The position numbers and the translations under genes were made by a program. Below are positions 1,451-19,300 of a stretch of DNA of 42,645 nucleotides, piece after piece (position 1 is the first letter of the stretch; each line of letters opens with the position of its first letter). The DNA is from Candidatus Krumholzibacteriia bacterium. Lineage in GTDB: Bacteria > Krumholzibacteriota > Krumholzibacteriia > JAJRXK01. The notes beneath the pieces are model-generated. The model was not told the DNA's origin and made no database searches. It saw only the letters and a list, made by a program, of their open reading frames with translations. Where the stretch lies: NCBI GenBank assembly GCA_035268685.1, contig DATFKK010000114.1:1-42645 (forward strand), read 5' to 3'.

Positions 1451-2157
1451 GCGTCCAACATCTCCCGCAGGATCTCACCGAGCGCCTGCAGTGCTCGCGA
1501 GTACCGCTTGCGGATCGCGGCGTGGCTGGATCCGAGGATCTCGGCCACCCGATCGTGGGTGTGGCCCTGGTAATCGTGCAGCACGATCACCTCGCGGGCC
1601 GATTCCGGCAGCCGCATCAGGGCCTCCTGGACCAGGGCTTCTCGCTCGCTGGCGAGCGCTCCCTGCTCCGGATCCGGACCACCGTCTCGCAACACATGGG
1701 CCAGTTCCGGCTGGTCGTCGATCGACGCGGACTGTCGCTCCATGCGGTCCGAGGCCGATCTCCACCGGTCCCGTGCCACATTGTACGTGATCGTCGTCAG
1801 CCAGGGCCCCGGATCCCGATCCGGGTCCAGACGATCGATCGCGCGGTGGACCTTCAACAGCACGTCCTGGGTCGCGTCCTCGGCCGCCGCTCGGTTCCCG
1901 AGCAGGCGCACGGTCAGACCGTACACGTACGGGAAGTAGCGGTCGAAGAAACGGCCCAGTGCGTCGGGGTCGCGGTCGCGCACTCGCAGCAGCTCTTCGC
2001 GCGGCGGGGGCTCGATGTCGCGTCCCGGCGCAGCCGGTCCGGCCTCACGTGTCTCGTCACGTTCTACGGATTCGTGAGACGAGTGTGTCGGGTCGGGTGA
2101 CGAGGTCACGGGCTTCCAGGGGGCTCGTACCGACGGGGGTACGTGAAGGGACTCCAT
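1447..2157 (-). CDS. ECF-type RNA polymerase sigma factor
   Basis: This 236-residue protein has an unusually long, disordered N-terminal extension of about 50 residues rich in Pro/Ser/Glu. The sigma-70 region 2 follows (FFDRYFPYVYGLTVRLLGN, then EDATQDVLLKVHRAI with the conserved DA-Q-VF-like core) and then region 4 (LPESAREVIVLHDYQGHTHDRVAEIL, ending in a recognition helix SHAAIRKRYSRALQALG). It should direct RNA polymerase to a specific promoter set and be held by the FecR-domain protein encoded directly downstream with a 4-base overlap. The ATG at 2157 follows a GGAGA ribosome site. It is divergent from the FAD/polyferredoxin gene at 2290, which may belong to its regulon. That link is inference from position only. 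Confidence 0.88.
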   Translation of the reverse strand: MESLHVPPSVRAPWKPVTSSPDPTHSSHESVERDETREAGPAAPGRDIEPPPREELLRVRDRDPDALGRFFDRYFPYVYGLTVRLLGNRAAAEDATQDVLLKVHRAIDRLDPDRDPGPWLTTITYNVARDRWRSASDRMERQSASIDDQPELAHVLRDGGPDPEQGALASEREALVQEALMRLPESAREVIVLHDYQGHTHDRVAEILGSSHAAIRKRYSRALQALGEILREMLDA

Positions 2158-2289
2158 GGATTCTCCAATGTATCACGCAGTCGCAACGTGTCGACGCCGA
2201 CAGTCGTCCTCGGACGCGTTACGGTTCCTGGGCCCTCTGCTCTTCGACTTCCACCCCTGTCACCCGATGACTTCGATGGAGGACCATTG

Positions 2290-4602
2290 ATGCCCGGCCC
2301 CGCCGGCTCGCTCGCACGCCGTCTCACCGAACCCGTCCGCAGATACACCCGTTGGCTCCACACCGGCTGGCCCGCCGGTACCGTCGAGAAGCTCCCCGAG
2401 GCGAACGAGGACGGTTCCACACGCGTCCCGGGCCTCTACCTGGTGGGCGACCTCACCGGGATCCCGCTGTTGAAGTTCTCGGCCGACACCGGCGCCCGCG
2501 CGGTGCGCACGATCGCCGACGACCCCGACTTCCTGCCCACGCGCGACCCCGACGACGATGTCCGCGACCTCGTGATCATCGGTGCCGGCGTGGCCGGCAT
2601 GTCGGCCGCACTCGAAGCGCGCGAGGCCGGTCTGGACTTCGTGGTCCTCGAGGCCAGCGAGCCCTTCTCGACCATCGTGAACTTCCCGCGGCGCAAGCCG
2701 ATCTACACCTACCCCACCGACATGCAGCACGCCGGCGACATGCGATTCCGCGCCGACGTGAAGGAGGACCTGCTCACCGAGCTGCGCGAGCAGACGATCG
2801 AGCAGGGGATCGTTCCGCAGCCCGGTCGCGCGACGCGCGTGCAGCGCTCCGGCGGACGTCTGCTCGTCGAACTGGCGAACGGCGAGCCCATCCGGGCCCG
2901 CCGCGTGATCGTGGCGATCGGCCGCAGTGGCGACTTCCGGAAGCTGAACGTGCCGGGCGAAGAACTCGACAAGGTCAGCAACCGTTTGCACGACCCCAAG
3001 GACTACTGCGATCGCGACGTCCTCGTCGTGGGCGGGGGCGACAGCGCGGTGGAATCGGCCGTGGCCCTGGCCGAATGCGGCGCCCGGGTCACGCTCAGCT
3101 ATCGCCGGGATCAGTTGACCCGTCCCAAGCCCGACAACGTCGAGGCCCTGGATCGAGCCAGCGAGGAGCACGGCCTACGTCAGATGCTCGGCAGCCAGGT
3201 GAAGCGTATCGACGAATCGAGCGTCGAGCTCGAGACCGCCGACGGCACCGAGACCATCGACAACGACAACGTGTTCACCATGATCGGCCGGGATGCCCCC
3301 CTGGACTTCTTCCGTCGCAGTGGCGTGCCGATCCGTGGCGAGTGGCGCACGTCGACCAAGCTGTCGTTCGTGGCCATCCTTCTGGCGGCGATCTTCGTCT
3401 ACCACTGGAAGACCAGCGCGGGAATCCCGATCTACTCGTGGTTCCAGGAGAACGGCTGGTTCCCCTTCAACATCGGGTCGCCGTCCGATCCTTCCACGTT
3501 CCTCGGCACACTCACGCTCAGCGCCAAGAGCCCCGGTTTCTACTACACCTTCGCGTACTCGTCCGCGGTGCTCCTCTTCGGTATCGCGCGCATCCGCCGG
3601 AGGAAGACGCCGTACATCACGGTGCAGACCCTCACGCTGACGGCGATCCAGGTGATCCCGCTGTTCCTGTTGCCGTACCTGGTCCTGCCGTGGATGGGCC
3701 ACAACGGCTTCTTCGATTCGGGACTCGCGAAGACCGTGGCCGACAACCTCTTCCCGGTGACCGAATGGGACGCCCACGGACGCGAGTACTGGCGCGCCTT
3801 CGGTCTGATCCTGGCCTGGCCGTTGATGATCTGGAACGTGTTCACCGACCAACCGCTCGTGTGGTGGCTGGTGATCGCCTTCGCCCAGACCTTCGTGATC
3901 ATTCCGGCCATGATCTATTTCTGGGGCAAGGGCGCGTACTGCGGTTGGGTGTGCTCCTGCGGCGCGCTCGCCGAGACCGTGGGCGACACGCTGCGCGAGA
4001 AGATGCCCCACGGCCCGGTGTGGAACCGGGTGAACATGGTCGGCCAGGTCGTCCTGCTGGCCGCCTTCGTGCTCCTGTTCTTCCGGATCGTCGGCTGGGT
4101 ATGGCCCGACACTGCCGTCGGCGAAGCCTTCCGGGGCGCGTACATGGCGGGTCTCACGGGTCGCGGCGGCGACTGGTCCGACCTGGGCTTCCCGATGAAT
4201 TTCCTGAACTACGCCTGGATCGTCGATCTGACCATGGCCGGGATCATCGGCGTGGGTTTCTACATGCACTTCTCCGGACGCGTGTGGTGCCGCTTCGGGT
4301 GCCCGCTCGCCGCACTGATGCACGTGTACGCCCGCTTCAGCCGCTTCCGGATCCTGGCCGACAAGAAGAAGTGCATCAGCTGCAACGTGTGCACGAGCGT
4401 GTGCCACCAGGGGATCGACGTCATGAGCTTCGCGAACAAGGGCGAGCCCATGGCCGACGTCCAGTGCGTCCGCTGCAGTGCCTGCGTCCAGAGCTGCCCC
4501 ACCGGAGTGCTCGAGTTCGGTCAGATCGATCGGAAGACCGGGCGCGTGATCGCCGTCGACGCGCTGGGGGCCTCGCCGGTGAAGATGCGCGAGGGCCACT
4601 GA
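2290..4602 (+). CDS. FAD/NAD(P)H oxidoreductase fused to a membrane polyferredoxin (NapH/CcoG-like)
   Basis: The chosen start is ATG 2290, with GGAGGA at 2278-2283, giving 770 residues; the frame is open further upstream but without a better site. Residues about 46-75 (PGLYLVGDLTGIPLLKFSA) look like the closing FAD-binding segment of thioredoxin-reductase-like flavoproteins. A Rossmann FAD motif GAGVAG (98-103) and an NAD(P)H motif GGGDSAVE (248-255) follow. From about 356 the chain becomes membranous, with several helices. The membrane part holds CGWVCSC (551-557) and CRFGCP (667-672), as in NapH/NosR/CcoG-type proteins, then two 4Fe-4S clusters: CISCNVCTSVC (695-705) and CVRCSACVQSC (726-736). 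It probably moves electrons between NAD(P)H and a membrane or periplasmic acceptor through flavin and Fe-S. Direction and partner are unknown. The module order is odd (see findings). Confidence 0.85.
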   Translation: MPGPAGSLARRLTEPVRRYTRWLHTGWPAGTVEKLPEANEDGSTRVPGLYLVGDLTGIPLLKFSADTGARAVRTIADDPDFLPTRDPDDDVRDLVIIGAGVAGMSAALEAREAGLDFVVLEASEPFSTIVNFPRRKPIYTYPTDMQHAGDMRFRADVKEDLLTELREQTIEQGIVPQPGRATRVQRSGGRLLVELANGEPIRARRVIVAIGRSGDFRKLNVPGEELDKVSNRLHDPKDYCDRDVLVVGGGDSAVESAVALAECGARVTLSYRRDQLTRPKPDNVEALDRASEEHGLRQMLGSQVKRIDESSVELETADGTETIDNDNVFTMIGRDAPLDFFRRSGVPIRGEWRTSTKLSFVAILLAAIFVYHWKTSAGIPIYSWFQENGWFPFNIGSPSDPSTFLGTLTLSAKSPGFYYTFAYSSAVLLFGIARIRRRKTPYITVQTLTLTAIQVIPLFLLPYLVLPWMGHNGFFDSGLAKTVADNLFPVTEWDAHGREYWRAFGLILAWPLMIWNVFTDQPLVWWLVIAFAQTFVIIPAMIYFWGKGAYCGWVCSCGALAETVGDTLREKMPHGPVWNRVNMVGQVVLLAAFVLLFFRIVGWVWPDTAVGEAFRGAYMAGLTGRGGDWSDLGFPMNFLNYAWIVDLTMAGIIGVGFYMHFSGRVWCRFGCPLAALMHVYARFSRFRILADKKKCISCNVCTSVCHQGIDVMSFANKGEPMADVQCVRCSACVQSCPTGVLEFGQIDRKTGRVIAVDALGASPVKMREGH

Positions 4603-4726: not shown

Positions 4727-5386
4727 GTGACCGAGTCCCGCCAGAGCCGCCGAACCCGTGATCCCGAACGCAGCCGACGGGCGATCCTCGACGCCGCCCG
4801 CGACGAGTTCGTGGCACACGGCTTCACCGGGGGCCGCACGGGCCGGATCGCCGAGGCCGCCGGAGTCCCACAGGGTCTCCTGTACCACTACTTCGACAAC
4901 AAGGAAGGCCTCTTCGACGCGGTCATGGAGGACACCCTGGCGCCGTACTTCAACGGGATGCTCGACATGCTGCAGTCGGCCGAGGTCCCCGACCTGGACC
5001 TGCTCGAGGACTCGGTCCGTCGCTATTTCCAGTTCCTGCACGACAACCCCCACGTGGCCCGCCTGCTGGCCTGGTGGTTCGCCGATCAGGCCTGGGAGGG
5101 CAAGCCCCTCACCCGGAAGCAGGGCGTGGCCGAAGCCGTGGAACTGCTCGGCGCGGCCCGGATCCGCGAGGGCCAGGACGCCGGCTTCGTCCGGCGGGAC
5201 CTCGATCCCGCCCTGGTGATCAAGACCTTCATCGACATGTGCGTGATGTGGCACATGAGCAAGGGCCGACACATGCTCCACACGGCACCCGGCGAGGAGC
5301 AGGCCGACCTCGACGCCCGTTATCTCGACCACATGGTCGACGTCTTCCTGAACGGCGTCGTCGCACCGGAGCACCGCCCGCGCTGA
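4727..5386 (+). CDS. TetR/AcrR-family transcriptional repressor of the adjacent RND efflux genes
   Basis: This 219-residue protein starts at GTG 4727 with GAGGAG at 4715-4720. Residues about 12-60 form the TetR helix-turn-helix (RRAILDAARDEFVAHGF, then GRIAEAAGVPQGLLYHYFDNKEGLF), with the canonical YHYF-KE signature. The C-terminal ligand/dimer domain contains Trp-rich LLAWWFADQAW, suggesting a hydrophobic ligand pocket. By family rule it represses the neighbouring efflux operon and is released by a pump substrate. Matching palindromic sites before its own gene and before the adaptor gene support autoregulation plus control of the pump. Confidence 0.9.
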   Translation: MTESRQSRRTRDPERSRRAILDAARDEFVAHGFTGGRTGRIAEAAGVPQGLLYHYFDNKEGLFDAVMEDTLAPYFNGMLDMLQSAEVPDLDLLEDSVRRYFQFLHDNPHVARLLAWWFADQAWEGKPLTRKQGVAEAVELLGAARIREGQDAGFVRRDLDPALVIKTFIDMCVMWHMSKGRHMLHTAPGEEQADLDARYLDHMVDVFLNGVVAPEHRPR

Positions 5387-5432
5387 CGCGCGGGGCCGAC
5401 GGACCCCGATACCCGAGGCAGGAATCCCGAAG

Positions 5433-5454
5433 TATTGACTGATTACTCAATCCA
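5433..5454. promoter_or_regulatory. Probable TetR operator ahead of the RND adaptor gene
   Basis: ATTGA-N8-TCAAT (5434-5451) lies in the gap between tetR and the adaptor gene. Its left part, TATTGACTGA, is identical to the site at 4670. TTGACT at 5435-5440 could also serve as a -35 element, but I could not identify a convincing -10. Confidence 0.5.
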
Positions 5455-5556
5455 ATCCTGGGGCGCGCCGCGCGCCGGTACGGCGGAGGCGCCCCGGGGC
5501 CACTCGGGCCCGCCATCGAGACCCGACCCCACGCCCCCGACCGGAGCGAAGGAGCC

Positions 5557-6693
5557 ATGAGACCCTCGACCGCCCCACGCACCCGTCGCGTCCTGTCGCC
5601 CGCCGCGATCCTCGTCGCCCTCGTCGTGACCCTGGTGGCGGTGCCGCGCTTCGTCACCGGTCCCCCGGATCCGTCCGATGGCAGCGCCGCGGCCCGGCCG
5701 ACTCCCTCACCCGAGGACGCCGTCCGTGTCCGGATCCACGAGGTGCGTGCGCACACCGGCCCGGCCTCCGTCCACCCCCTGCGGGCGAGTGGAACGCTCG
5801 AGGCCCGCCGTCACGCTGTCCTGGCCTTCGCCGTGTCGGGCGTGGTCGACGCGGTCCTGCGCGACGAAGGAGACGAGGTCACGCCGGGAACCGCCCTGGC
5901 CCGCCTCGACCCCATCCCCTTCGAGAGTGCCGTCGAACGCGCCGAGGCCCGGGTCGACCACCTCGAGAAGAGCCTCGCCCGCAGCCGCCGGCTGCTCGAC
6001 CAACGAGCGCTGAGCGACGAGGAGTTCGACGCCCAGGATGCCGAGCTCACGGGCGCCCGCGCCGAACTGCGACTCGCGCGGTGGAATCTCGACCGCTCCG
6101 TCCTGCGCGCACCCTTCGCCGGACACGTCCTCGCCCGGCACGCCGAAGAAGGCGAGGTCGTCGGAAGCGGTGTTCCCGCCTTCGAGCTGATCGAACTGCG
6201 CTCCCTGGAGGTGGAAGCCGCGCTGCCGGCGAGCGATCTCTCCCTGGTCGACCTCGACGGACCGGTCACTCTCGTCGCCCGCGACGACCCCCGTCTGCGC
6301 GCCACCGGCTCGGTGGAACACGCTCCGCTGCAGAGTGACACACGCTCGGGGTCGGTGCCGTTGCGGTTGGTGGTCGACAACGAACATCGCCGTCTGCTTC
6401 CGGGCATGGTCGTCCAGGCCACCTTCAGTCCACGCCCGCCCACCGCCGGCGGCGAGGAGCTTCGCGTCCCGCTGAGCGCGTTGCGCATCGACGACCAGGG
6501 CCAGGCCGTGTGGCGCGTCGACGCCCGAGGGCGGGTCGAACGCGTGGATGTCGAGGTCGGTCCGGTGCGCGGCGACCGCGTGGTGATCACCGGTGGCCTG
6601 CGGGCCGGGGATCGCATCGTCGACGAGGCCCCCGATCGCCTGCGCGCCGGCGATGCCGTCGTCTCCGTGGAGCGCGGAGGTGAGCCCCGATGA
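5557..6693 (+). CDS. RND efflux periplasmic adaptor (membrane fusion protein)
   Basis: This 378-residue HlyD/AcrA-type adaptor starts at ATG 5557 (GAAGGAG at 5548-5554). Residues about 13-35 are a single N-terminal membrane helix or signal anchor. A barrel-sandwich (lipoyl-like) half motif follows (ASGTLEARRHAVLAF, GVVDAVLRDEGDEVTPGTAL). Then come an alpha-helical hairpin (about 128-185, coiled-coil-like, RAEARVDHLEKSLARSRRLL), the second lipoyl half (LRAPFAGHVLARHAEEGEVV) and beta-barrel and membrane-proximal domains. It should bridge the inner-membrane permease to the outer-membrane channel. Its stop overlaps the permease ATG by 4 bases, so the two are coupled. Regulation is most likely through the TetR at 4727. 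Confidence 0.9.
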   Translation: MRPSTAPRTRRVLSPAAILVALVVTLVAVPRFVTGPPDPSDGSAAARPTPSPEDAVRVRIHEVRAHTGPASVHPLRASGTLEARRHAVLAFAVSGVVDAVLRDEGDEVTPGTALARLDPIPFESAVERAEARVDHLEKSLARSRRLLDQRALSDEEFDAQDAELTGARAELRLARWNLDRSVLRAPFAGHVLARHAEEGEVVGSGVPAFELIELRSLEVEAALPASDLSLVDLDGPVTLVARDDPRLRATGSVEHAPLQSDTRSGSVPLRLVVDNEHRRLLPGMVVQATFSPRPPTAGGEELRVPLSALRIDDQGQAVWRVDARGRVERVDVEVGPVRGDRVVITGGLRAGDRIVDEAPDRLRAGDAVVSVERGGEPR

Positions 6694-9600
6694 GCAGCAC
6701 CACCCTCGCCGTCCGCAACTACCGCTTCGTCGTCATCTTCACCCTGGCCGCGCTCACCCTCGGAGTACTCGGTTTCGTGAAGATGCCACGACAGGAAGAC
6801 CCCACCCTTCCGGCTTTCGGTGGGACCGTTCGTGTCGTGTATCCGGTGGGAACCGCAGAAGAGGTCGAGGACCGGATCGTCGAACCGATCGAGGAGGCGC
6901 TGCACGCGCTCGAGGAGATCGACACGGTCGAGGCCACCGCGGCCGACGGCGTGGCCGTGATCACCGGCGAGTTCCGCGACGACGTCGACAAGGACGAGGC
7001 CTTCGACCTCTTCGCCCAGGCCGTGTCGGGCGTGCAGGACGACCTTCCCGACGGCGTGACCGAACTCCGCGTGATCGAACAGAAACCCAGCGCCGTCGTC
7101 GCGATCCAGGCGGCGATCCACGGCCCGGACGCCACCGACGCCGAGCTGCGCCACTGGGCCGAGGAACTCGAGGACCGCTGGAACACACTCGGCGATGCGG
7201 GTGAGATCCGGATCGAGGGAGCGCGGGAACAGCAGGTGCACGTGATGATCGATCCCGATCGGATGGCGGCGAGTGGGATCGCCCTGGGTCAGGTGAGCGA
7301 CGCCATCGCCGCCGCGAACGGTGACCTTCCCGGCGGCAGCGTGATGAGCGGCGTGCGCCGCCTGAGCATCCGGCCGAACCCGCGCTTCGAGACCCTCGAC
7401 GACATCCGCACCACGGTGCTCACGGCGGTCGACGGGCGCCCCGTGCTGCTCGGTTCCTTCGCGACGGTCCGATGGGGGAGCGAGGATCCGCAATATGTCG
7501 TCCGGCACCAGGGGGAGCCGGCCGTGGTCGTCACCGCCAAGCTCAAGGAGGGCCGCAACGTCCTCGACATGACGGCCGACGCGCGTCTCGAACTCGACCG
7601 TCTCCGCGCCGATCTTCCCGACCACCTGACGGCGTCGGTCGTGGTCGACCAGAGCGACGACGTGTCGGCGCGTCTGCGAACCTTCGGCTTCAGCCTGCTG
7701 CAGGGTGGGGCGATCATCGTCCTGTTCGTGGCGATCATCGTGGGTTGGCGGGCGGCCGTGGTGGCGATCACCGCGATGACCCTGGCCGTGGGCATCTCCT
7801 TCTGGCTGCTCGACGCCTTCGGCGTGTCGTTGCAACAGATGTCGATCGCGGGGCTCGTGGTCGTGCTCGGCCTACTGGTCGACAACGCCGTGGTCGTGTT
7901 CGAGTCGATCCTCCACGAACGTCAGAAGGGCACGCCGGCGAACGAAGCGGCGATCCGTGGAACCGATCGCGTGGCCAGCGCGGTGACCAGCGCCACCGCG
8001 ACCACGGTGGCCGCCTTCGTGCCCATGCTGTTCATGGCCGGCTCGGTCGGGGACTTCACCCGCGACATCCCGACGGTGGTCTCGCTCGTCCTGATCGTCA
8101 GTCTGGGGGTGGCGCTGTTCGTCACGCCGCTGGTGGCGATCCGGCTGTTCGGATCGCCGCGCGCGGCTCGCCCGGCCGGCCTGCAGCCGATCCTCGACCA
8201 CGTCGCCCGGCGCGGCGCCTACGCGCGGACTCTCGACTTCGTGCAGGCGCGACCTCGCGTGACCGTGCTCGCGCTGCTCCTCGCCGCCGCGGGTCTGATC
8301 GGGATCGGCACGACACTCGGCATGAACTTCTTCCCGCGCGCCGACGACAAACCCCTGTTCCTGGTGAGGGTGAAGGCGCCGCAGGGAACCAATCTGTGGA
8401 CCACGCACGAGCGTGCGATCGAGGTCGAACGTTGGATCCTGGACCATCCGCTGACGAAGTCGGTGACGACGAACGTCGGCGAGGGCAATCCGATGGTCTA
8501 CTACAACACACTGCGTGACATTCCGCGGACGAACTTCGCCGAACTCCTGGTCACCGTCCCGCGGGACGCGAGCATGGACATTCCCGATCTCGCGCGACGG
8601 ATCCGCGACCGCTTCGCCGGCGATCCGCGCTTCCGGGTCGAGACGAAGCTGCTCGTGCAGGGGCCACCCGTGGGACTGCCCGTGTCGATCCGTATCGACG
8701 GCGACGACCTCGAGCGTCTCCGCGAACACGCCGACGCATTGGCGGACGCGCTGCGCGAGATCCCGGGCGCGATCAACGTCTCGCACGACCTCAGACCGGG
8801 TGCACCACGCCTGGAGCTGCACACCGATCCGGTGAAGATCCACAAACTGGGCCTGAACTCGGCACTGGTGGCTCGGGAGATCCGATTGGCCATGGCCGGC
8901 GGCAGGGCGACCACGCTGCGCGTGAACGGCGAGGACCACGACGTGGTCGTCCGCGTGGCGGCGGAGGGCGCCGAAGGCATCGACGACCTCGAGCGGGTGC
9001 GGGTCCCGCTGCCCGGCGGAACGCCGGTTCCCCTGGCACAACTCACCCGACCCTCGTTGTCGAGCACCTACGCCCGGATCATGCACACCGACCTCGAGCG
9101 TTCGGTGATCGTGGGCGCCGACACCGACGACCGTCTGGCGACGGAGATCGTCGCCGACCTGTTGCCCGCGGTCCGCGGCCTCGACCTCGCTCCGGGCGAG
9201 AGCTGGGAAGTGATCGGCGAGGACGAGGAACGCGACGTGGCGTTCCTGTCGATGCTGCAGAACGTGGTCGTGGCCATGGGTCTGATCTACGGGATCCTCG
9301 TCCTGCAGTTCGGTTCGTTCAAACTGCCACTGGTGATCTTCACGTCGATCCCCGTGGCGTTGGCCGGTTCGGTGGCGGGGCTGCTCGTGAGCGGCTGGCC
9401 GTTCGGCTTCACCGCCTTCATCGGGTTGCTGGCCCTGGTGGGGATCGTGGTGAACGACGCGATCGTTCTCGTCGACCGGGTGAACCAGTACCGCCGCGAC
9501 GGCGAGACCCTGGACCGCGCGGTCCGTCACGCGGCCCAGTCCCGTCTGCAGCCGATCATCCTGACCACGCTGACCACGCAGGCGGGTCTGCTCCCACTCA

Positions 9601-11066
9601 CACTCTTCGGAGGCAGCATGTGGGGACCCATGGGATGGGTGATCATCGGAGGGCTGAGCGCGGCCACGTTGGTCACCCTCGTGCTGGTGCCCGCTCTGTA
9701 TCTGATCCTGGAGCGCGGCGGGGAACGCCGTGCGCGCCTTCCCGAAGGTGCGGTGGCCACGGCCACGGTCGTGGCCGTACTGCTGATCACCCTGCCCGCT
9801 CCGGCAGCCGCACTGGATCTCGGCACGGTCCTCGATCGGGTGGAAGCGGCGAATCCCACGCTGGACGCGGCGCTGGCCGACCTCGAACACGCCGCGGCCG
9901 ATCACCGGAGCGCACGGTCGGGCCGTTGGCCCCGACTCGAACTGCGTTCGGATGCCGCGCGCACGAACGAACCCACCGAGACCTTCGGCCTCCAACTGCT
10001 CGACGTGTCCGGACCGGCGGACCTGCTCGCCTTCGACCCCGATGCCGCGGTCGACGTGTGGACCTCGAGTGCGCGGGTCGACTGGTTGCTGTGGGATTTC
10101 TCGCGCGAGGAACTGATCGACGCCGCGGCCAAGAGCGAACGCGCACGGGAGCAGAGCCATCGGGCGGTCGCACGGCGGCTGCGCCTGGCCGCCGTCGTGC
10201 GGTACTTCGAGATCGTCCAGTGGCGGCAACGACTGGACGTGATCGACGCCACCCTGGAACTCGTGGATCGTGAACTCACCGACGCCGAGTTGCGTCTGGA
10301 GGCAGGGCGCACGGTCGAGGCCGATGTCCTGGGTCTGCGCGCGCGACGGTCCCAGGTCCGCGCCGAACGCGCATCGATCGAGGCGGCACGACACGCAGCC
10401 CGCGCCCGACTGGGCGAACTCATGGACGTCGACCCCGTCTCGATGGGCGAACCCGACGCCGACACGACCGTCCCCACCGCCCCGTGGTCGTCGCTCGACG
10501 AGGTGCGCACCCGTGCGCGCGAACGGCGACCAGAGGTTCGCGCGGCGCGTCTGGCCGCGTCCGCCGGCGACGATCGCATCGGCGCCGCCCACCGCGAACG
10601 GCTGCCGCGACTCGTCGCGAGCGCGCGCGCCGTGACGGTCGTGCCGGAGTTCGACACCGATCGCGAGGACGCATCGATGCAGGCGGCGATCGGACTCCGT
10701 TGGAGTCCGTTCCAGGGAGGTCGGATCGGCGCCGAGGTCGATCGGGCGCGTGCCGACCGTCGCCGTGCCGAGGCCGAGCGCCGCGCGGCCGAACTGGAGG
10801 TCGAACGCGAGGCGATCGAAGCCTGGACCCAGCGGGACGCCGCGCACCGCCGCCTGGAGGCGGCCGGAATCCAACGCGACGCAGCCGAAGAAGCCTACCG
10901 GATCGTCTCACTGCGCTTCGCCGAAGGCCGTGACACCCTCGCGCGCCTGTTCGAGGCCGAACGCGCCCTGACCGACGCACGCACCCAGGGGGTCCGGGCT
11001 CGGGCGGCGGTCCAGATCGCCGAGGCGAGACTCCGCTGGGCCGCGGTGGCTCCCCTCGTCCCCTGA
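6690..11066 (+). CDS. RND efflux permease fused in frame to a TolC-like outer-membrane factor
   Basis: This is one uninterrupted frame of 1458 residues. Residues 1 to about 1008 are a complete RND permease: N-terminal helix, porter loops, GLLVDNAVVVFE in TM4 (D398-N399, where AcrB has Asp-Asp), GIVVNDAIVLVD in TM10 (N922-D923) and a final helix ending LVPALYLILERG. A basic stretch (ERRAR, about 1013-1017) and a hydrophobic segment (1021-1038) then end in PAPAAA before LD, which has the form of a signal peptide with its cleavage site after A1041. Residues about 1042-1458 are an outer-membrane factor with two coiled-coil repeats (LDAALADLEHAAADHRSA; later DAAEEAYRIVSLRFAEGRDT). The fusion would supply pump and outer-membrane duct from one gene. 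A GTG at 9753 could also restart translation. Substrates are unknown; the proton-relay Asp pair is only half kept. Confidence 0.9.
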   Translation: MSSTTLAVRNYRFVVIFTLAALTLGVLGFVKMPRQEDPTLPAFGGTVRVVYPVGTAEEVEDRIVEPIEEALHALEEIDTVEATAADGVAVITGEFRDDVDKDEAFDLFAQAVSGVQDDLPDGVTELRVIEQKPSAVVAIQAAIHGPDATDAELRHWAEELEDRWNTLGDAGEIRIEGAREQQVHVMIDPDRMAASGIALGQVSDAIAAANGDLPGGSVMSGVRRLSIRPNPRFETLDDIRTTVLTAVDGRPVLLGSFATVRWGSEDPQYVVRHQGEPAVVVTAKLKEGRNVLDMTADARLELDRLRADLPDHLTASVVVDQSDDVSARLRTFGFSLLQGGAIIVLFVAIIVGWRAAVVAITAMTLAVGISFWLLDAFGVSLQQMSIAGLVVVLGLLVDNAVVVFESILHERQKGTPANEAAIRGTDRVASAVTSATATTVAAFVPMLFMAGSVGDFTRDIPTVVSLVLIVSLGVALFVTPLVAIRLFGSPRAARPAGLQPILDHVARRGAYARTLDFVQARPRVTVLALLLAAAGLIGIGTTLGMNFFPRADDKPLFLVRVKAPQGTNLWTTHERAIEVERWILDHPLTKSVTTNVGEGNPMVYYNTLRDIPRTNFAELLVTVPRDASMDIPDLARRIRDRFAGDPRFRVETKLLVQGPPVGLPVSIRIDGDDLERLREHADALADALREIPGAINVSHDLRPGAPRLELHTDPVKIHKLGLNSALVAREIRLAMAGGRATTLRVNGEDHDVVVRVAAEGAEGIDDLERVRVPLPGGTPVPLAQLTRPSLSSTYARIMHTDLERSVIVGADTDDRLATEIVADLLPAVRGLDLAPGESWEVIGEDEERDVAFLSMLQNVVVAMGLIYGILVLQFGSFKLPLVIFTSIPVALAGSVAGLLVSGWPFGFTAFIGLLALVGIVVNDAIVLVDRVNQYRRDGETLDRAVRHAAQSRLQPIILTTLTTQAGLLPLTLFGGSMWGPMGWVIIGGLSAATLVTLVLVPALYLILERGGERRARLPEGAVATATVVAVLLITLPAPAAALDLGTVLDRVEAANPTLDAALADLEHAAADHRSARSGRWPRLELRSDAARTNEPTETFGLQLLDVSGPADLLAFDPDAAVDVWTSSARVDWLLWDFSREELIDAAAKSERAREQSHRAVARRLRLAAVVRYFEIVQWRQRLDVIDATLELVDRELTDAELRLEAGRTVEADVLGLRARRSQVRAERASIEAARHAARARLGELMDVDPVSMGEPDADTTVPTAPWSSLDEVRTRARERRPEVRAARLAASAGDDRIGAAHRERLPRLVASARAVTVVPEFDTDREDASMQAAIGLRWSPFQGGRIGAEVDRARADRRRAEAERRAAELEVEREAIEAWTQRDAAHRRLEAAGIQRDAAEEAYRIVSLRFAEGRDTLARLFEAERALTDARTQGVRARAAVQIAEARLRWAAVAPLVP

Positions 11067-11202
11067 GCGACGGGGTGGCGCCCGCCAGCACCGCGCGGTA
11101 CGATCAAGGGCGACACCGACCGAACCCCCTCGTTGCGGTCGTGGGCACGTCGGATCCGGCCCTTCGCCGTGCCCTCCTGTTTCCTGCCGGCCCGGTCCCG
11201 GC

Positions 11203-12942
11203 ATGTTCCCCACGCTTCGCTTCGGAGACTTCGAAGTCGATCCCGTCCGCCGTGTCCTGACACGCGAGGGACAGGCGATCGATCTCCGCCCCAAGAGCTT
11301 CTCGCTCCTGTGGTTGTTGCTGAACAACCGCGAACGCGTCGTGCCGAAGGACGAGATCCTCGAATCCGTGTGGCCCGACGGATCCGGGACCGAGGCGAAC
11401 CTCACCGTGAACGTCGCGGCCGTGCGCCGGGCGCTCGGCGAGAATCCGCGCGAGCATCGCTACCTGCTCACGGTTCCCACGGTCGGCTATCGCTTCGTCG
11501 GTGAGGTGCGGACGACCGCCGCCGAGAGCCGGGTCCCCCTCGATCACTGCCGGACCTTCGGGATCGCCGAACTGCGCGTGGTGACCGACGGAGCCGAGGA
11601 CGAACTCCACGAACTCGCACGACGCGCCACCGAGTCGATCGCAGGGACGATCGCGGCACTCCCCGGCCGATCGGTCCGACGGGTCCTGGCGCCGACCGAC
11701 CTGAAGCACGCCTTCGCGACCACACCGTCCCCTGCGACCGCGGGAGACATCGAGGCCATGATCCTCGGCTCGATCCAGGTCGTCGGCAGCGAACTGAGCG
11801 TGGAGATCGCCATCTTCACCGTGGCCGACGGACGGCGCGCCTGGTCGGGCCGGATCGTCCATGCGTGGCGCGATCGGGACTGCCTGCCGATCCGGCTGCA
11901 GCGACTCGTGTTGAACGCACTCCGGACGCCGACCGCTCCGGGAGGGTGGGCCGAGCGCGGCAACGAAACCGACGATCGCGCCGTGCAGGCGGCACTCCAG
12001 GGGGACCTGCTGCTCGAGGGCGGTGTCCCCGATCTCGACCGGGCCAGCGCCTGCTACCGTCGCGCGCTGCTGCTCGACGAACGATCGATCGCGGCCCACG
12101 TCGGTCTCGGGGAGTCGCTGCTGCTGCAGTGGGGTGCCCACCAGGTCACCGATGTCTCGGTGCCGGATCGTGTGCGCGAGCTGATCGAGCGGGCGATCGA
12201 GAGCGATCCCCTGGATGCCCGCGCTCGGGCCGTGGCCGGGCTGGTCCGCATGACCCTGGACCACGACTGGAGCGCCGCACGCGAGCAGCTCCTCGCCGCC
12301 GTGGACTTCGGGCCCCACCAGGCGATCACGCACGACCACTACGCCCTGTTCCTGGCCGCGCGACTCCAACCCGAGGCCGCCCTGCACGCCGCACAACGCG
12401 CGCAGGAGCTCGACCCCGACTCCCCGCGGATCCAGTGTCACGTGGCCCTGATCCACTACTTCGCGGGCGATCTCGACGCCGCTCTCGCCGTCCTCGACGA
12501 CGCGCTCGCGCGCCACGCCAACCCCGCCTTCGCCCGGGAACTCCGCCCCTGGTGCCTGCTCGGTCTCGACCGACCGGTCGATGCCCTCGAGGCCCTTCGG
12601 GACGCGGGACCCAACCTCGGACCCAGCGCCACGCTCGGCGCGGTCCGCATCGCCGCTCTGTCGCGCGCCGGCGACCGGAGCCGCGCCGCCTCCGAGATCC
12701 CTCGACTCGAGGCCGGAACCCCGGACGCCCCGCCCCTGCCCGCTCTGGCCGGGGCCGTCATCCGCCTCTCGATGGACGATCCGACCGGCGCCCTGCTCGA
12801 CCTCGAGCGGGCGGCCGAAGCCCGGGCGCCCCTGGTGGTCTTCGCCGAGGCCGACCCCTTCTGGCGTCGCCTCCACGGACACGCCGAATGGCCGTCGTTC
12901 GCCCGACGTGTGTTCGGTCGCCGCCGCGCGACCGGCGTCTGA
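11203..12942 (+). CDS. Winged-helix (OmpR/CadC-type) transcriptional regulator with TPR C-terminus
   Basis: This 579-residue protein begins with a trans-reg-C winged helix (about 5-105): LRFGDFEVDPVRRVLTREG, LRPKSFSLLWLLLNN, then VWPDGSGTEANLTVNVAAVRRALGE and the wing VPTVGYRFVGEV. A middle alpha/beta region (about 115-245) resembles the FlgO/TolB-N-like domain often found in such regulators. The C-terminal half (about 265-575) is a run of TPR-like helix pairs such as ASACYRRALLLDERSIAAHVGLGE. Unlike CadC/ToxR, no membrane helix is visible, so it should be cytoplasmic and sense a protein or ligand through the TPR array. It sits alone between two RND modules; the target is unknown. The start ATG 11203 lacks an obvious ribosome site. 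Confidence 0.8.
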   Translation: MFPTLRFGDFEVDPVRRVLTREGQAIDLRPKSFSLLWLLLNNRERVVPKDEILESVWPDGSGTEANLTVNVAAVRRALGENPREHRYLLTVPTVGYRFVGEVRTTAAESRVPLDHCRTFGIAELRVVTDGAEDELHELARRATESIAGTIAALPGRSVRRVLAPTDLKHAFATTPSPATAGDIEAMILGSIQVVGSELSVEIAIFTVADGRRAWSGRIVHAWRDRDCLPIRLQRLVLNALRTPTAPGGWAERGNETDDRAVQAALQGDLLLEGGVPDLDRASACYRRALLLDERSIAAHVGLGESLLLQWGAHQVTDVSVPDRVRELIERAIESDPLDARARAVAGLVRMTLDHDWSAAREQLLAAVDFGPHQAITHDHYALFLAARLQPEAALHAAQRAQELDPDSPRIQCHVALIHYFAGDLDAALAVLDDALARHANPAFARELRPWCLLGLDRPVDALEALRDAGPNLGPSATLGAVRIAALSRAGDRSRAASEIPRLEAGTPDAPPLPALAGAVIRLSMDDPTGALLDLERAAEARAPLVVFAEADPFWRRLHGHAEWPSFARRVFGRRRATGV

Positions 12943-13052: not shown

Positions 13053-13703
13053 ATGAGCGAGACCAGGACGCGCGAACGAATCCTCGACGTTGCCGAGAAG
13101 TTGTTCTCTGACAACGGATTCGAGAGCACTTCGCTCCGCATGATCACCGCGGCCGCCGACGTCAACCTGGCTGCGGTCCACTATCACTTCGGATCGAAGG
13201 CGGGGCTGCTGCACGCGACGGCGCGGCGGCGGATCGATCCGGTGAACGCCGAGCGGATCCGGCGGCTCGAAGCCGCCGTGGACGCCGCGGGCGGGGGAAC
13301 GCCTCCGGTGGAGGCCATCGTCGACGCCTTCGTGCGACCGGCGATCGAGGCGTTCTCGGAGGTGGACCGCACCTGCCTGCTCGGAATGCTCCGCCTCGTC
13401 CACGGGCGCGACGTCGACAAGGCCTTCTTCGAGGACACCTTCGGCGAAGTCGTCCAGCGCTTCTCGATCATGCAGGACGCCGCTCCGCACCTCGGTCCCG
13501 ACGAGCTGCAGTGGCGCTTCCACTTCATGGTCGGCGCCGTGCTGCAGGCCTTCCACCACCGCGTGCTCGAAGTGCACCCCGAGATCGCCGACTGGGACCC
13601 CTCGAGCGTGGCCGATGCCATCGTCGCGTTCGTGGCCGCCGGCTTCCGTGCGCCGGCGACCCACGGCGCGGCGTCCCCGCTACCCCAGGAGAACGCTCCG
13701 TGA
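13053..13703 (+). CDS. TetR/AcrR-family repressor, first gene of the second RND operon
   Basis: This 216-residue protein starts at ATG 13053; the frame is open far upstream, but that part is antisense-type noise inside the previous gene. The helix-turn-helix is RERILDVAEKLFSDNGF, then LRMITAAADVNLAAVHYHFGSKAGLL (about 6-50), with the HYHFGSK signature. The C-terminal part contains FHFMVGAVLQAFHHRVLE, reminiscent of CerR/YbiH-type TetR C-terminal domains. Its stop (TGA 13701-13703) overlaps the GTG start of the outer-membrane lipoprotein gene (13700), so the repressor is the leading cistron of a four-gene operon (tetR, OMF, adaptor, permease) and would autoregulate through the sites at 12992-13023. 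Confidence 0.88.
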   Translation: MSETRTRERILDVAEKLFSDNGFESTSLRMITAAADVNLAAVHYHFGSKAGLLHATARRRIDPVNAERIRRLEAAVDAAGGGTPPVEAIVDAFVRPAIEAFSEVDRTCLLGMLRLVHGRDVDKAFFEDTFGEVVQRFSIMQDAAPHLGPDELQWRFHFMVGAVLQAFHHRVLEVHPEIADWDPSSVADAIVAFVAAGFRAPATHGAASPLPQENAP

Positions 13704-15151
13704 GACGCCTCGCCGTGGCCATCGGGCTGTCGAGCCTCCTCGGATGCACCGCACCGCCCCCGCCGTCGTCCGAACCCCTCGACCTGACCCTGCCCGACAC
13801 CTGGGCCGGCGACGCGGTCGCCGACTCGGCCGGGACCGACCCCTGGTGGAACGATCTCGCCGACGCCTCGCTCGACTCGGTCGTCCGGGAAGCGCTGCGC
13901 GCCAATCACGATCTGGACGCGGCCGCGGCCAACGTCGAGGCCGCGCGCGCGGCCGCCACCATCGCGGGTGCCGACCGCTGGCCGCAGGTGAGCGCGAACG
14001 GACGCGGCAGCCGGACCAAGCAGATCTTCGTGGGACTGCCGATCGGATCGGGCGTGTTGAGTTCGCTGACGAACAGCTTCGCCCTGTCGCTCGACGCGAC
14101 CTGGGAGATCGATCTCTGGAACCGCCTGGGCGAGCGGGAACGCGCCGCCCTGGCCGACCTGCAGGCGAGCCAGGCGGACCTGGCGGGCGCGCGTTTGAGC
14201 CTGGCCGGACGGGTGGTGCGCACGTGGGTCTCGCTCACCGAGCTCGGCCGCCAGCGCAGCCTGGCCGCGCGCACGCTCGAGGCGTTCCGCCAGACCCTCG
14301 AGATCGCGCAGGACCGATACGACCGCGGATTGATCAGCCCCGTCGACGTCCACCTCACCCGCACGAATGCCGAGAACGCCGCGGCCCTGCTCGCACTGCG
14401 CGAGAACCAGCTGCAGCAGACCAGCCGCCAACTCGAGGTCCTGCTCGGCCGCTATCCCGAGGGCGCGCTCCGCGGCGCGGACACCTTCCCCACGACCGTC
14501 GGAGACGTGCCGGCCGGCCTCCCGGCCGACCTGGTGCTGCGTCGACCCGATCTGGTGGCCGCCGAACGCCGGCTCGTCGCCAGCCGGGCCCGCACCGGAG
14601 AAGCCCGCCGCAACCTCCTTCCGAGGATCAGCCTCACCGGGAGTACCGGCACCACCAGCAACCAGCTCGAAGACCTGCTCGACGGCGATTTCGGCGTGTG
14701 GTCCATCGCCGGGTCGCTGCTCCAGCCGGTGTTCCAGGGCGGGCGACTGCGCGCGCAGGTCGCCGCGAACGTGGCCACCGAGGACGCCGCGCTGGCCGTC
14801 TGGGCGCAGTCAGTGCTGAACGCCCTGGCCGAGGTCGAGACCGCGCTGGCCGCGGACGATCTCCTGACCGAGCGCGAGCGCCACCTCGCCGCGGCCGTCG
14901 CCGCCGCGACCCGCGCGTGGACCCTGGCCGAGGACCGCTACCGCCAGGGCATCGGTGACCTGCTCAGCGTGCTCGAAGCCCAGCGCCGCGCGCTGACGGC
15001 GGAGAGCGAACTGATCGCCGTCCGTAGTGCCCGCCTCCTCGCGCGCGTGGACCTCCATCTGGCCCTCGGCGGTGGATTCGATCCCCGCCGTGGCCCCATG
15101 GCCGACTTCCTCGACGTGGCCACGGCCGACACCGATTCCGACAGCGAGTGA
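13700..15151 (+). CDS. RND outer-membrane factor lipoprotein (NodT/OprM family)
   Basis: The start GTG 13700 (AGGAG at 13687-13691, 8-base spacing) gives 483 residues with a lipoprotein signal: basic RR, hydrophobic core and lipobox LLGC with Cys16 as the lipidated residue. The mature protein has two outer-membrane-efflux repeats. The first includes PWWNDLADASLDSVVREALRAN, DLDAAAANVEAARAA and SLDATWEIDLWNRLG; the last two motifs are hallmarks of the NodT subfamily. The second includes LVLRRPDLVAAERRLVASRA and later YRQGIGDLLSVLEAQR. It forms the outer-membrane channel of the tripartite pump encoded by the next two genes. It overlaps tetR by 4 bases and ends just before the adaptor start. Confidence 0.92.
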   Translation: MRRLAVAIGLSSLLGCTAPPPPSSEPLDLTLPDTWAGDAVADSAGTDPWWNDLADASLDSVVREALRANHDLDAAAANVEAARAAATIAGADRWPQVSANGRGSRTKQIFVGLPIGSGVLSSLTNSFALSLDATWEIDLWNRLGERERAALADLQASQADLAGARLSLAGRVVRTWVSLTELGRQRSLAARTLEAFRQTLEIAQDRYDRGLISPVDVHLTRTNAENAAALLALRENQLQQTSRQLEVLLGRYPEGALRGADTFPTTVGDVPAGLPADLVLRRPDLVAAERRLVASRARTGEARRNLLPRISLTGSTGTTSNQLEDLLDGDFGVWSIAGSLLQPVFQGGRLRAQVAANVATEDAALAVWAQSVLNALAEVETALAADDLLTERERHLAAAVAAATRAWTLAEDRYRQGIGDLLSVLEAQRRALTAESELIAVRSARLLARVDLHLALGGGFDPRRGPMADFLDVATADTDSDSE

Positions 15152-15159
15152 GACCGAAG

Positions 15160-16344
15160 ATGAACCCGACCGTCCGCAAGATCGTCCTGCCCGTCGCCGC
15201 CCTGCTGATCGGCGCCTTCGGCGCCGCGGTCATCGTGAAGGCCCGGCCCGAGGCGAAGCGCGTGCGCCCGCCAGAGATCGTTCCCGTGGTCGAGGTGATG
15301 CGGGTCGAGCGCGGTCCGCACGTGCACGCGGTCGCGGGTCAGGGCACCGTCGAGCCCCGAACCGCGAGTGCGTTGGTCGCCGAGGTTCCCGGTCGCGTGG
15401 TGAGCGTGAGCGAGGACTTCGTCGAAGGCGGCTTCTTCGACCGGGGCGACGTGCTCGTCCGCCTCGACGACCGCGACACCCGGGCAGCCGTGGCCCAGGC
15501 CGAGGCCCAGACGGCCCAGACACGTGTCGCCCTCGAGCGCGAGAAGGAAGAAGCCCGCGTCGCGCGCGAGGAATGGGAACGCTTCGACCGTGAGGGAGAG
15601 CCGGGACCGCTGGTGTTGCGCGCGCCGCAGTTGGCCCAGGCGCGGGCGGCGCTGAACGCGGCCGAAGCCCAGGTCGAACGGGCCCGCCGGGACCTCGAGC
15701 GCACCCGACTGCGCGCCCCCTACGCCGGCCGTCTGCGCGAGAAACTCGTCGACGTGGGCGACTACCTGCAGCCCGGCGCTCGGGCGGCGGCGATCTACGC
15801 CGTGGACTACGCCGAGGTGCGCGTCCCGCTCTTCGACCAGGACCTCGCATTCCTCGATCTCCCCCTGGGCGTGCGCGGCGAGGACAACGACGACATGCGA
15901 GGACCGCGCGCCGTCGTCCGCGGCACCTTCGCCGGCCGGGAACACGAATGGCTCGGTCGGGTGCACCGCACCGAGGGCGAGATCGACCCACGGAGCCGCA
16001 TGGTCCACGTCGTCGTACGCGTGGCGGATCCCTACGGGGCCGCGGCCGGTCAGGCCGGCGTTCCCCTCGCGGTGGGCATGTACGTCGACGTCGAGATCCA
16101 GGGAACCCGTGTCGACGACGTGGCCGTGATCCCGCGGAGCGCACTCCTGTCCGGCGACCGCGTCGGCGTCGTCCGGGACGGACGCCTCGAACTGCGCGAC
16201 GCCGAGGTCGTCCGGTCCACGCGCACGTCGGTGGTGCTCTCCGACGGCGTCGACGACGGTGACCAGGTCCTGCTCACGCGGCTCGACGTGCTGGTCGACG
16301 GAATGAGCGTGCGCGTGGCCGCCACGCGGGAGGCCGCCCGATGA
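15160..16344 (+). CDS. RND efflux periplasmic adaptor (membrane fusion protein)
   Basis: ATG 15160 is taken as the start (394 residues). GTG 15148, overlapping the previous stop, is a possible coupled alternative; neither has a strong ribosome site. Residues about 5-24 form a membrane anchor (VRKIVLPVAALLIGAFGAAV). The lipoyl half motifs are GQGTVEPRTASALVAEV with VVSVSEDFVEGGFFDRGDVL, and LRAPYAGRLREKLVDVGDYL. A coiled-coil hairpin lies between them (about 110-185). The C-terminal beta-barrel and membrane-proximal part contains VPLAVGMYVDVEIQG and AVIPRSALL. It links the outer-membrane lipoprotein encoded upstream to the permease downstream, with which it shares a 4-base ATGA overlap. Confidence 0.9.
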   Translation: MNPTVRKIVLPVAALLIGAFGAAVIVKARPEAKRVRPPEIVPVVEVMRVERGPHVHAVAGQGTVEPRTASALVAEVPGRVVSVSEDFVEGGFFDRGDVLVRLDDRDTRAAVAQAEAQTAQTRVALEREKEEARVAREEWERFDREGEPGPLVLRAPQLAQARAALNAAEAQVERARRDLERTRLRAPYAGRLREKLVDVGDYLQPGARAAAIYAVDYAEVRVPLFDQDLAFLDLPLGVRGEDNDDMRGPRAVVRGTFAGREHEWLGRVHRTEGEIDPRSRMVHVVVRVADPYGAAAGQAGVPLAVGMYVDVEIQGTRVDDVAVIPRSALLSGDRVGVVRDGRLELRDAEVVRSTRTSVVLSDGVDDGDQVLLTRLDVLVDGMSVRVAATREAAR

Positions 16345-19300
16345 CGCAGCGCGACGACGGCTACCGCGGCCAGGGCATCGTCCACTGGTTCACCGACAAC
16401 AGCGTCGCGTCGAACGTGCTCATGGTTCTGATCGTCGCCGCCGGCCTGGTGACGCTCACGTCGATGCGGCAGGAGGTCTTCCCGGAGTTCAGTACCGACA
16501 CGATCAGCGTGTCGGTCCCGTATCCGGGCGCGACCCCCTCGGAGGTCGAGGAATCCATCGCGACCAAGATCGAGGAAGCGGTGCAGGGCGTCGACGGGAT
16601 CGACCGTCTGACCTCGTCGAGCAACGAGGGCGCGGGGACCGTGGTGATCGAGGTCGAGGACGGCGCCGACGTGCGCACCGTGCTCGACGACGTGAAGTCG
16701 CGCGTCGACGCAATCGACACCTTCCCGGAGGACGCAGAGAAGCCGGTGATCCAGGAGGTGCTGATCCGCCGGCAGGTGCTGAACGTGGCCATCGCTGCCG
16801 ACGCCGACGAGCGCAGCCTGCGCGAACTCGGAGATCGCGTGCGGGACGAGATCACCCAGCTGCCGAACGTGTCGCAGGCCGACCTGGTGAACGTGCGGCC
16901 CTACGAGATCAGCATCGAGGTCAGCGAACGCGACCTGCGCCGCCACGGCCTGACCTTCGACCAGGTCGCGAACGCGGTGCGCCGCAGCTCGCTCGACCTG
17001 CCGGGCGGTTCGATCAAGACCGAAGGCGGCGAGGTCCTGCTGCGCGGCATCGGCCAGGCCTACCGCGGCGACGACTTCGAGACGATCGTCCTGATCACCC
17101 GGCCCGACGGCACCCGCGTGCTGCTCGGCGACGTGGCCACGGTGGTCGACGGCTTCGCCGACACCGACCAGGCGGCCTACTTCGACGGCCGACCCAGCTC
17201 CATGGTCAAGGTCTTCCGCGTGGGCGAGGAGGACGCGATCCGCATCGCCGACCAGGTGAAGGCCTACGTGGCCCAGGCCGATCGGTGGCTGCCCGAGGGC
17301 GTGCGGCTGGTGATCTGGGACGACAGCTCCGAGATCCTGAAGCAGCGCCGCGACCTGCTGCTGCGCAACGGCTTCTCGGGGTTGGCCCTGGTGATCCTCG
17401 TGCTCACGCTGTTCCTGCGGCTGCGACTGGCACTCTGGGTCAGCCTGGGCATCCCGATCAGTTTCCTCGGTGCGATCGCGCTCATGCCGGTCTTCGGCGT
17501 GACCATCAACATGATCTCGCTGTTCGCGTTCATCGTGGTGCTGGGCATCGTGGTCGACGACGCGATCGTGGTGGGCGAGAACATCTTCACGCACTACCGC
17601 CGCCACGGGAACGGCTTCCGCGCCGCGGTCGAGGGCACGCAGGAAGTCGCCATGCCGGTGACCTTCGGCGTGCTGACCACGGTGGTGGCCTTCATCCCGA
17701 TGTTCTTCATCCCGGGGCTGACGGGGAAGATCTTCGCGGTGATCCCGGCCGTGGTGATCCCGGTCTTGCTGTTCTCGCTGGTCGAGAGCAAGACGGTGCT
17801 GCCCGCCCACCTCAAGCACCTGAAGGGCGAAGGCGGTGAGTGGGGCTGGGGCATGAGGATCGCGGCCATGGTCGTGGCCGCGCTGATCCTGCTGCTCTTC
17901 TACCGCGTGGTCGATCGCGTCGCGGGCATTCCGCTGCCCACGGTGATCTACGTCGGCATCCCGGCCGCGATCGCCGCGGTGATCATCTCGCGATACCAGA
18001 AGGACATCGGCCGGGCGCTCGAGCGCTTCGTGCAGACGCGCTACCGGCCGGTGCTCGACCTGGCCGCGCGCTATCGCTACTTCACCATTGCCGGCGGCGT
18101 GGCCACCCTCGCGATCACGGTGGCCCTGGTGGCCGGCGGCCACATCAAGGTGCGCCTGTTCCCGAACGTCGAATCGGACTCGATCGTCGCCCGGGTCGAC
18201 ATGCCGCTGGGCACCCCGGTCGAGACGACGCGTGAGGCCGTGGCGCGCATCGAGCGCGCCGCCTCCGCGGTCCGGGCCGACCTCGAGGCCGAGCTGGGCG
18301 ACGAGGGTGCGGGCATCTTCCGCCACCGCCTGACCTCGATCGGCTACCAGCCGAGCCTGGCCGAGGGCGGTGGACCCATGGGTCCGGCCGACGGCAACTT
18401 CAGCGGCGGCCACCTCGGGGAGGTCGCGATCGAACTGACGGGCAGCGAGGACCGCACGATCAGCTCCACGGAGATCTCCCGGCGCTGGAAGCAGGAGGTC
18501 GGGGAGATCCCCGGCGCGGTCGGGCTCTCGTTCGTGGCCGATCTCTTCGACGCCGGGGCGCCGATCGACATCCAGTTGGCCTCGACCGACATCGACGAAC
18601 TCGAGTCCACGGCCGACGCGATCAAGGCCGAGCTCACGAACTTCGCCGGCGTGAGCGAGATCACCGACTCCTACGACACGGGCAAGCGCGAGCTACGGGT
18701 GCGGATCCGGCCCGAGGGAGAGATCCTCGGCCTGACCCAGCTCGACGTGGCCCGTCAGGTGCGCCAGGCCTTCTTCGGCGAAGAAGCCCAACGGATCCAG
18801 CGCGGCCGCGACGAGGTGAAGGTCATGGTCCGCTACCCCGAGGACGACCGCCGCAGCCTCGGAGACTTCGAGAGCATGCGCGTGCGCACCCCCGACGGCA
18901 CCGAGGTCCCCTTGCTCCGCGTGGCCGATGTGGAGAGGGGCCGCGGCTTCTCGACGATCCGACGGGTCGACCGTCAGCGCGTGATCAACGTGACCGCCGA
19001 CGTCGACGACGAGGTGGCCAACGCCAACGAGATCCTCGCCGCGGTCGAAGCGAACGCACTCCCTCCGATCCTGCGCGACCACCCGCGCGTGAGCTGGTCG
19101 TTCGAGGGAGAACAGAAGGAACAACGCGACAGCAACCAGGGCCTGATACGCGGCTTCCTGCTGGCCCTGCTCGTGATCTACGCGATGATGGCCATTCCCT
19201 TCCGCAGCTACGTGCATCCGGCGGTCGTGATGAGCGCCGTACCCTTCGGCGTGGTCGGGGCGATCTGGGGCCACATGCTCATGGGCGAACCTCTCAGCCG

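Follow-up and report, generated by a model that had tools for sequence, protein, structure and literature searches.

A stretch of 42,645 nucleotides from a Candidatus Krumholzibacteriia bacterium (in its entirety referred to here as the window) encodes an RND (resistance-nodulation-division) efflux permease and a TolC-like outer-membrane factor (OMF) as one uninterrupted protein of 1458 residues. Comparison with fused and unfused homologues makes it very probable that this gene yields one polyprotein that is cut in two at an internal signal peptide located between pump and duct. In a 4.59 Mb draft genome of 202 contigs, the window makes up contig C114; among named assemblies, those of Candidatus Krumholzibacteriota and Eisenbacteria are its nearest relatives. 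The fusion gene occupies positions 6690 to 11066 of the forward strand (1458 codons, zero internal stops) and follows a gene for a periplasmic adaptor of the membrane fusion protein (MFP)/HlyD type (5557 to 6693, forward strand; PF16576 and PF13437), which passes the TIGR01730 RND_mfp profile with 197.6 bits (cut-off 94.9). The adaptor is the first gene of the operon, and its end shares four nucleotides (ATGA) with the start of the fusion gene.

Both halves of the fusion are complete, as judged by the coverage of permease and channel in Pfam and TIGR01844. The permease domain (residues 1 to 1008, to the end of transmembrane helix 12, TM12; positions 6690 to 9713) matches PF00873 ACR_tran over residues 6 to 1007 with 538.6 bits (cut-off 28), i.e., as a full-length domain of the RND permease superfamily. 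The channel (residues 1042 to 1458; 9813 to 11063) matches PF02321 OEP of the TolC/OMF family twice with 149.8 bits (cut-off 22; best stretch residues 1269 to 1449), and NCBIfam TIGR01844 (TolC) spans residues 1041 to 1452, entering the profile at position 2. Subfamily profiles score below their cut-offs throughout: the channel reaches 120.4 bits with TIGR01844 for the type I secretion TolC subfamily (cut-off 225.15), and the permease 310.5 bits with TIGR00914 for the heavy metal efflux (HME) CusA/CzcA subfamily (cut-off 701.45) and 458 bits with its best NCBIfam match, RND_permease_2 for multidrug RND transporters (NF033617; cut-off 1250). In an AlphaFold2 model of residues 993 to 1458, pLDDT stays below 50 across the junction and exceeds 90 from about residue 1043 onward, and Foldseek matches the modeled channel to ST50, TolC, OprN, and OprM (E-values from 1.8e-19 to about 1e-15, TM-score of approximately 0.7). 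With this confident fold and its matches in the PDB, the channel is a complete OMF protomer that starts right after the predicted cleavage site, as a mature OMF would.

The chain after TM12 reads ERGGERRARLPEGAVATATVVAVLLITLPAPAAA/LDLGTVLDRVEAANP, with the slash at the predicted site, and its residues 1009 to 1041 resemble a signal peptide. A basic n-region, RGGERRARLPEGAVA (residues 1009 to 1023; 9714 to 9758), contains the cluster ERRAR (residues 1012 to 1016) and carries a net charge of +2 ahead of a 12-residue hydrophobic core, TATVVAVLLITL (residues 1024 to 1035; 9759 to 9794), which is the most hydrophobic 12-mer with a mean Kyte-Doolittle value of 2.74. The c-region PAPAAA (residues 1036 to 1041; 9795 to 9812) ends in a predicted signal peptidase I site, AAA/LD, so that the cut would fall between nucleotides 9812 and 9813 and the mature channel would start at L1042 (nucleotide 9813); all these features lie on the forward strand. 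The junction thus has the basic n-region, hydrophobic core, and small-x-small site of signal peptidase I substrates, and a signal peptidase I is encoded in the same genome. An earlier note on this DNA, made from its letters alone, had read the frame as a complete permease followed by a complete outer-membrane factor with ERRAR, a hydrophobic stretch, and PAPAAA-LD as a signal-peptide-like junction; both observations are borne out.

Three same-clade homologues carry the same uninterrupted fusion: L051 (=L023; 1487 residues, 57% identical), L053 (=L022; 1461 residues, 59% identical), and L052 (1483 residues, 52% identical). Their junctions end in ARSGLRWPWAKPMVSTAIAMLVVGSMSLANA/QP, GRGRRRRLGGLTTAGVLLGLWTLGGTVPATA/TE, and GRGHTAGPVTAGLVLLAASLLGAPILGGNAQA/AQ, respectively (slashes placed by us), and have little sequence in common while all being signal-peptide-like. 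Mean pairwise identity within the clade is 60% for the permease, 30% for the junction, and 39% for the channel. The alignment of homologues that had been proposed as a check therefore shows that the property of the junction is kept and its sequence is not. A further candidate with 35% identity in the permease, L054, turned out to be unfused, with OMF, MFP, and RND permease in separate frames.

We extended this comparison by searching whole genomes with permease-channel queries and calling fusions without regard to the junction, either from hidden Markov models of both domains or from a long extension beyond the permease domain. This survey gave 49 distinct fused RND-OMF frames from the window's class, other lineages, and Bacteroidota; the long frames of G054, G050, G040, G060, and G047 were rejected as upstream read-through in GC-rich DNA. 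If a looser small-x-small site is allowed, an element of basic residues, hydrophobic stretch, and small residues lies at all 49 junctions, with a mean core hydropathy over 12 residues of 1.7 to 3.3 and, in the type of G011, G007, G052, and G044, an RRKR cluster that sits further upstream of the core. No such core is found in the tails of 97 unfused permeases (6 to 56 residues), whose best 12-mers reach 1.4. Under a strict rule (net charge of at least +2, then a 12-residue hydrophobic core free of charged or strongly polar residues, then AxA), 33 of the 49 junctions pass versus 24 of 513 hydrophobic segments within the same permeases and none of the 97 unfused tails or the 49 channel bodies; most junction failures have SNA, VNA, or KTYA in place of AxA. 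The signal-like pattern at the junction exceeds chance (Fisher p of 5e-26 for junctions against permease segments, a value that overstates independence given that the sequences are related). The junctions of two surveyed frames, L085 and L096, bear lipobox-like motifs (LISC and LASC, respectively), and judging by these motifs their channels might be released by lipoprotein signal peptidase and lipidated.

The Bacteroidota fusions offer a more specific sign. In Bacteroidetes, cleavage by signal peptidase I leaves an N-terminal glutamine in most substrates, known as the "Q-rule" (PMC5837995). In each of the 30 fusions from Bacteroidota, a small residue with glutamine directly behind it comes after the core; of 22-residue windows taken from other parts of these proteins, 22% contain such a pair, though these counts are not independent because the fusions share a common ancestor. 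The same is true for all seven further fusions from named finished plasmids of Flavobacterium, Pontibacter, Adhaeribacter, Haliscomenobacter, Runella, Spirosoma, and Hymenobacter, each annotated as a single coding sequence with an adaptor gene adjoining. The junction glutamine is retained where neighboring residues have diverged, and no other finding speaks as strongly for genuine cleavage at the internal site. A plasmid search with the window's protein returned 3,081 records with RND permeases, none of which covers 80% of the query, so that the window's subtype was not seen among those plasmids.

A tree of the permease domain (67 sequences; IQ-TREE in quick mode with SH-aLRT support) requires at least seven changes of fusion state, every one of them forced by starred branches. 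The simplest reading of this tree is six gains and one reversal, with the gains in the window's clade, the G011 type, G155, G161, a clade of G002, G189, and G579, and the Bacteroidota CusA clade; the partial frame L096, which is outside the tree, may be a further gain, and the limits of the search together with long branches (L093) leave the exact count uncertain. The window's clade and the Bacteroidota CusA-TolC clade are separated by unfused relatives and thus do not form one line of fused descent; in this tree, the window's fusion arose on its own, in Krumholzibacteriota-like bacteria. The reversal concerns L144 of genome G463, where CusA and TolC are split but nested among fused relatives. 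There, the permease ends in a stop codon and, a few bases later, the channel starts from its own ATG (MKNILRNNIGSQFFSTMSIACFLFVFSLSAIA/QSKK), with an ordinary signal peptide where the fused relatives have their junction; this pair is probably a re-separated fusion. That fusions arose repeatedly and kept the signal every time argues for a need to separate the two halves.

The C-terminus of RND permeases is cytoplasmic and OMFs must be exported, so the chain needs one further membrane crossing, at the junction. We infer that one chain would enter the membrane as an ordinary RND permease of 12 helices with its end in the cytoplasm, and that the junction would then serve as an internal Sec signal peptide. 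The basic end of this segment would stay cytoplasmic, the hydrophobic core would re-enter the translocon as a short 13th span, and the channel half would be threaded to the periplasm. Signal peptidase I would cut AAA/LD after residue 1041 to give, in equimolar (1:1) amounts, an inner-membrane permease extended by a short C-terminal helix, plus a free TolC-like channel bound for the outer membrane; the adaptor from the same operon would link the two. RND permeases and OMFs each function as trimers, so a polyprotein would supply both in matched numbers from one message.

Several points weigh against such a cleaved polyprotein. The core of the window's junction is short and its basic cluster stops 7 residues before it, and counts inside one clade of fusions are not independent. 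Moreover, a fusion formed when a stop codon is lost inherits the channel's signal automatically, so that the mere presence of a signal in young fusions is no proof of use.

The earlier note had also proposed that the in-frame GTG at positions 9753 to 9755 of the forward strand (codon 1022) could start a separate channel protein, and such internal initiation would make a channel precursor with no need for a polyprotein cut. This GTG is preceded at 4 nt by a weak Shine-Dalgarno-like GAAGG, L051 has an ATG at the same position, and an ATG just ahead of the core occurs in some fusions of Bacteroidota. However, the start is not conserved: in 16 of the 49 fusions, among them two of the four from the window's clade (L052 and L053), the stretch from TM12 to the core lacks any ATG, GTG, or TTG, and internal initiation can therefore not be the shared mechanism. 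A product starting at GTG 9753 would also have no basic residue ahead of its core, and cleavage would be needed even with an internal start because, for lack of a stop codon, every permease chain bears a channel. The proposal is therefore weak and internal initiation a distinctly unlikely explanation of these genes, though in certain species it may contribute to the pool of free channel.

If instead the fusion stayed uncleaved, the junction would be a 13th transmembrane helix and the channel would remain covalently tied to the inner-membrane pump. The core is indeed hydrophobic enough for membrane entry, and public annotation lists the products as single proteins. In the window, the first channel helix comes only about 2 residues after the AAA site, and the first helix of OMFs (H1) lies in the equatorial ring, midway along the approximately 100 Å barrel (PMC8277102). 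An uncut tether to the inner membrane thus looks far too short to span the envelope, and cutting by signal peptidase I is the simplest solution to this problem. Junctions also keep small-x-small sites, plus the following glutamine in Bacteroidota. The linker is conserved neither in sequence nor in length. Taken together, we regard an uncleaved fusion as very unlikely.

It is highly implausible that the channel half is a decaying passenger while another OMF serves the pump: the channel is less conserved than the permease (39% versus 60% identity) and other OMFs are present, e.g., one ending at position 15151, but the channel half has a complete OMF fold at high confidence, the frame is undamaged in four species, and the operon holds no other OMF. 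A merging of two neighboring genes by a frameshift or sequencing error, named beforehand as what would overturn the fusion, or by faulty assembly, conceivable for one contig of a 202-contig draft, is next to impossible, since three independent homologues from as many assemblies carry the fusion intact and thereby exclude such an error at this locus, and finished plasmids of seven Bacteroidota genera share the architecture, which refutes it for the class.

Another RND operon of the window (13511 to 19769, after a TetR gene ending at 13703) is unfused and makes a handy internal comparison. It comprises an OMF with an LLGC lipobox (ending at 15151), an adaptor (15148 to 16344), and a permease (16341 to 19769) with 4-nt gene overlaps; an open reading frame at 13615 to 14958 is spurious, the true gene being this OMF in a different frame. 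The fused operon, in contrast, has no separate OMF gene. Among the approximately 20 RND permease genes of the 4.6 Mb genome, only that of the fused operon was seen joined to an OMF. A scan of positions 5200 to 11400 for promoters and terminators found none. Directly downstream of the fusion gene, positions 11203 to 12942 encode a protein with winged-helix (Trans_reg_C) and TPR domains that is a possible regulator. Elsewhere in the window, a methionine sulfoxide reductase gene (21484 to 22617) holds SelR (MsrB) and PMSR (MsrA) domains in one frame, and an 819-residue protein (2143 to 4602) combines pyridine-nucleotide-disulphide oxidoreductase and 4Fe-4S domains.

The RND-OMF fusion as such is already in the public annotation of Bacteroidota, where it is named for the permease alone ("CusA/CzcA family heavy metal efflux RND transporter," about 1450 to 1480 residues); the parallel to CusA-type pumps with a C-terminal TolC part, drawn in the earlier note, is thus correct. 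These proteins share with the window's the permease-then-OMF frame, the adjoining adaptor gene, and the signal-peptide-like junction, whereas the window's fusion has a separate origin, a sub-cut-off TIGR00914 score, an adaptor gene that comes before it and not after it, and no glutamine at +1. Compared to AcrAB-TolC and MexAB-OprM, the three component families and the expected trimer/hexamer/trimer assembly are the same, but those systems encode permease and channel by separate genes. The closest precedent for the processing is reportedly the FbcH cytochrome b/c1 polyprotein of Bradyrhizobium japonicum, which Thony-Meyer, Hennecke, and colleagues are said to have found to be cut by signal peptidase, though we did not find this work in the literature searched. 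FbcH likewise places an internal signal sequence behind a polytopic inner-membrane protein and gives two subunits from one gene, but its second product stays in the inner membrane while that of the window must reach the outer membrane, and its cleavage is reported to be established while that of the window's protein is suggested by comparison. QsdH of Pseudoalteromonas (PMC3466314) joins an N-acyl homoserine lactone (AHL) lactonase to an RND permease and thus also places the permease inside a multi-domain frame, though there the partner is a GDSL-type hydrolase and not an outer-membrane channel. In the literature searched, we found no paper on RND-OMF fusions and none that combines such a fusion with cutting at an internal signal, and the argument from convergence appears to be new.

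It seems likely that the pump-duct polyprotein is a general strategy that has arisen convergently at least six times across phyla and fixes 1:1 synthesis of pump and duct; in L085 and L096, the lipoprotein pathway would then release and lipidate the duct. If so, many database entries named just "RND transporter" would hold an outer-membrane channel as well and represent two proteins, which would affect proteomics, topology prediction, and counts of OMFs, and internal signal peptides of polytopic proteins would become testable in tractable Flavobacterium species.
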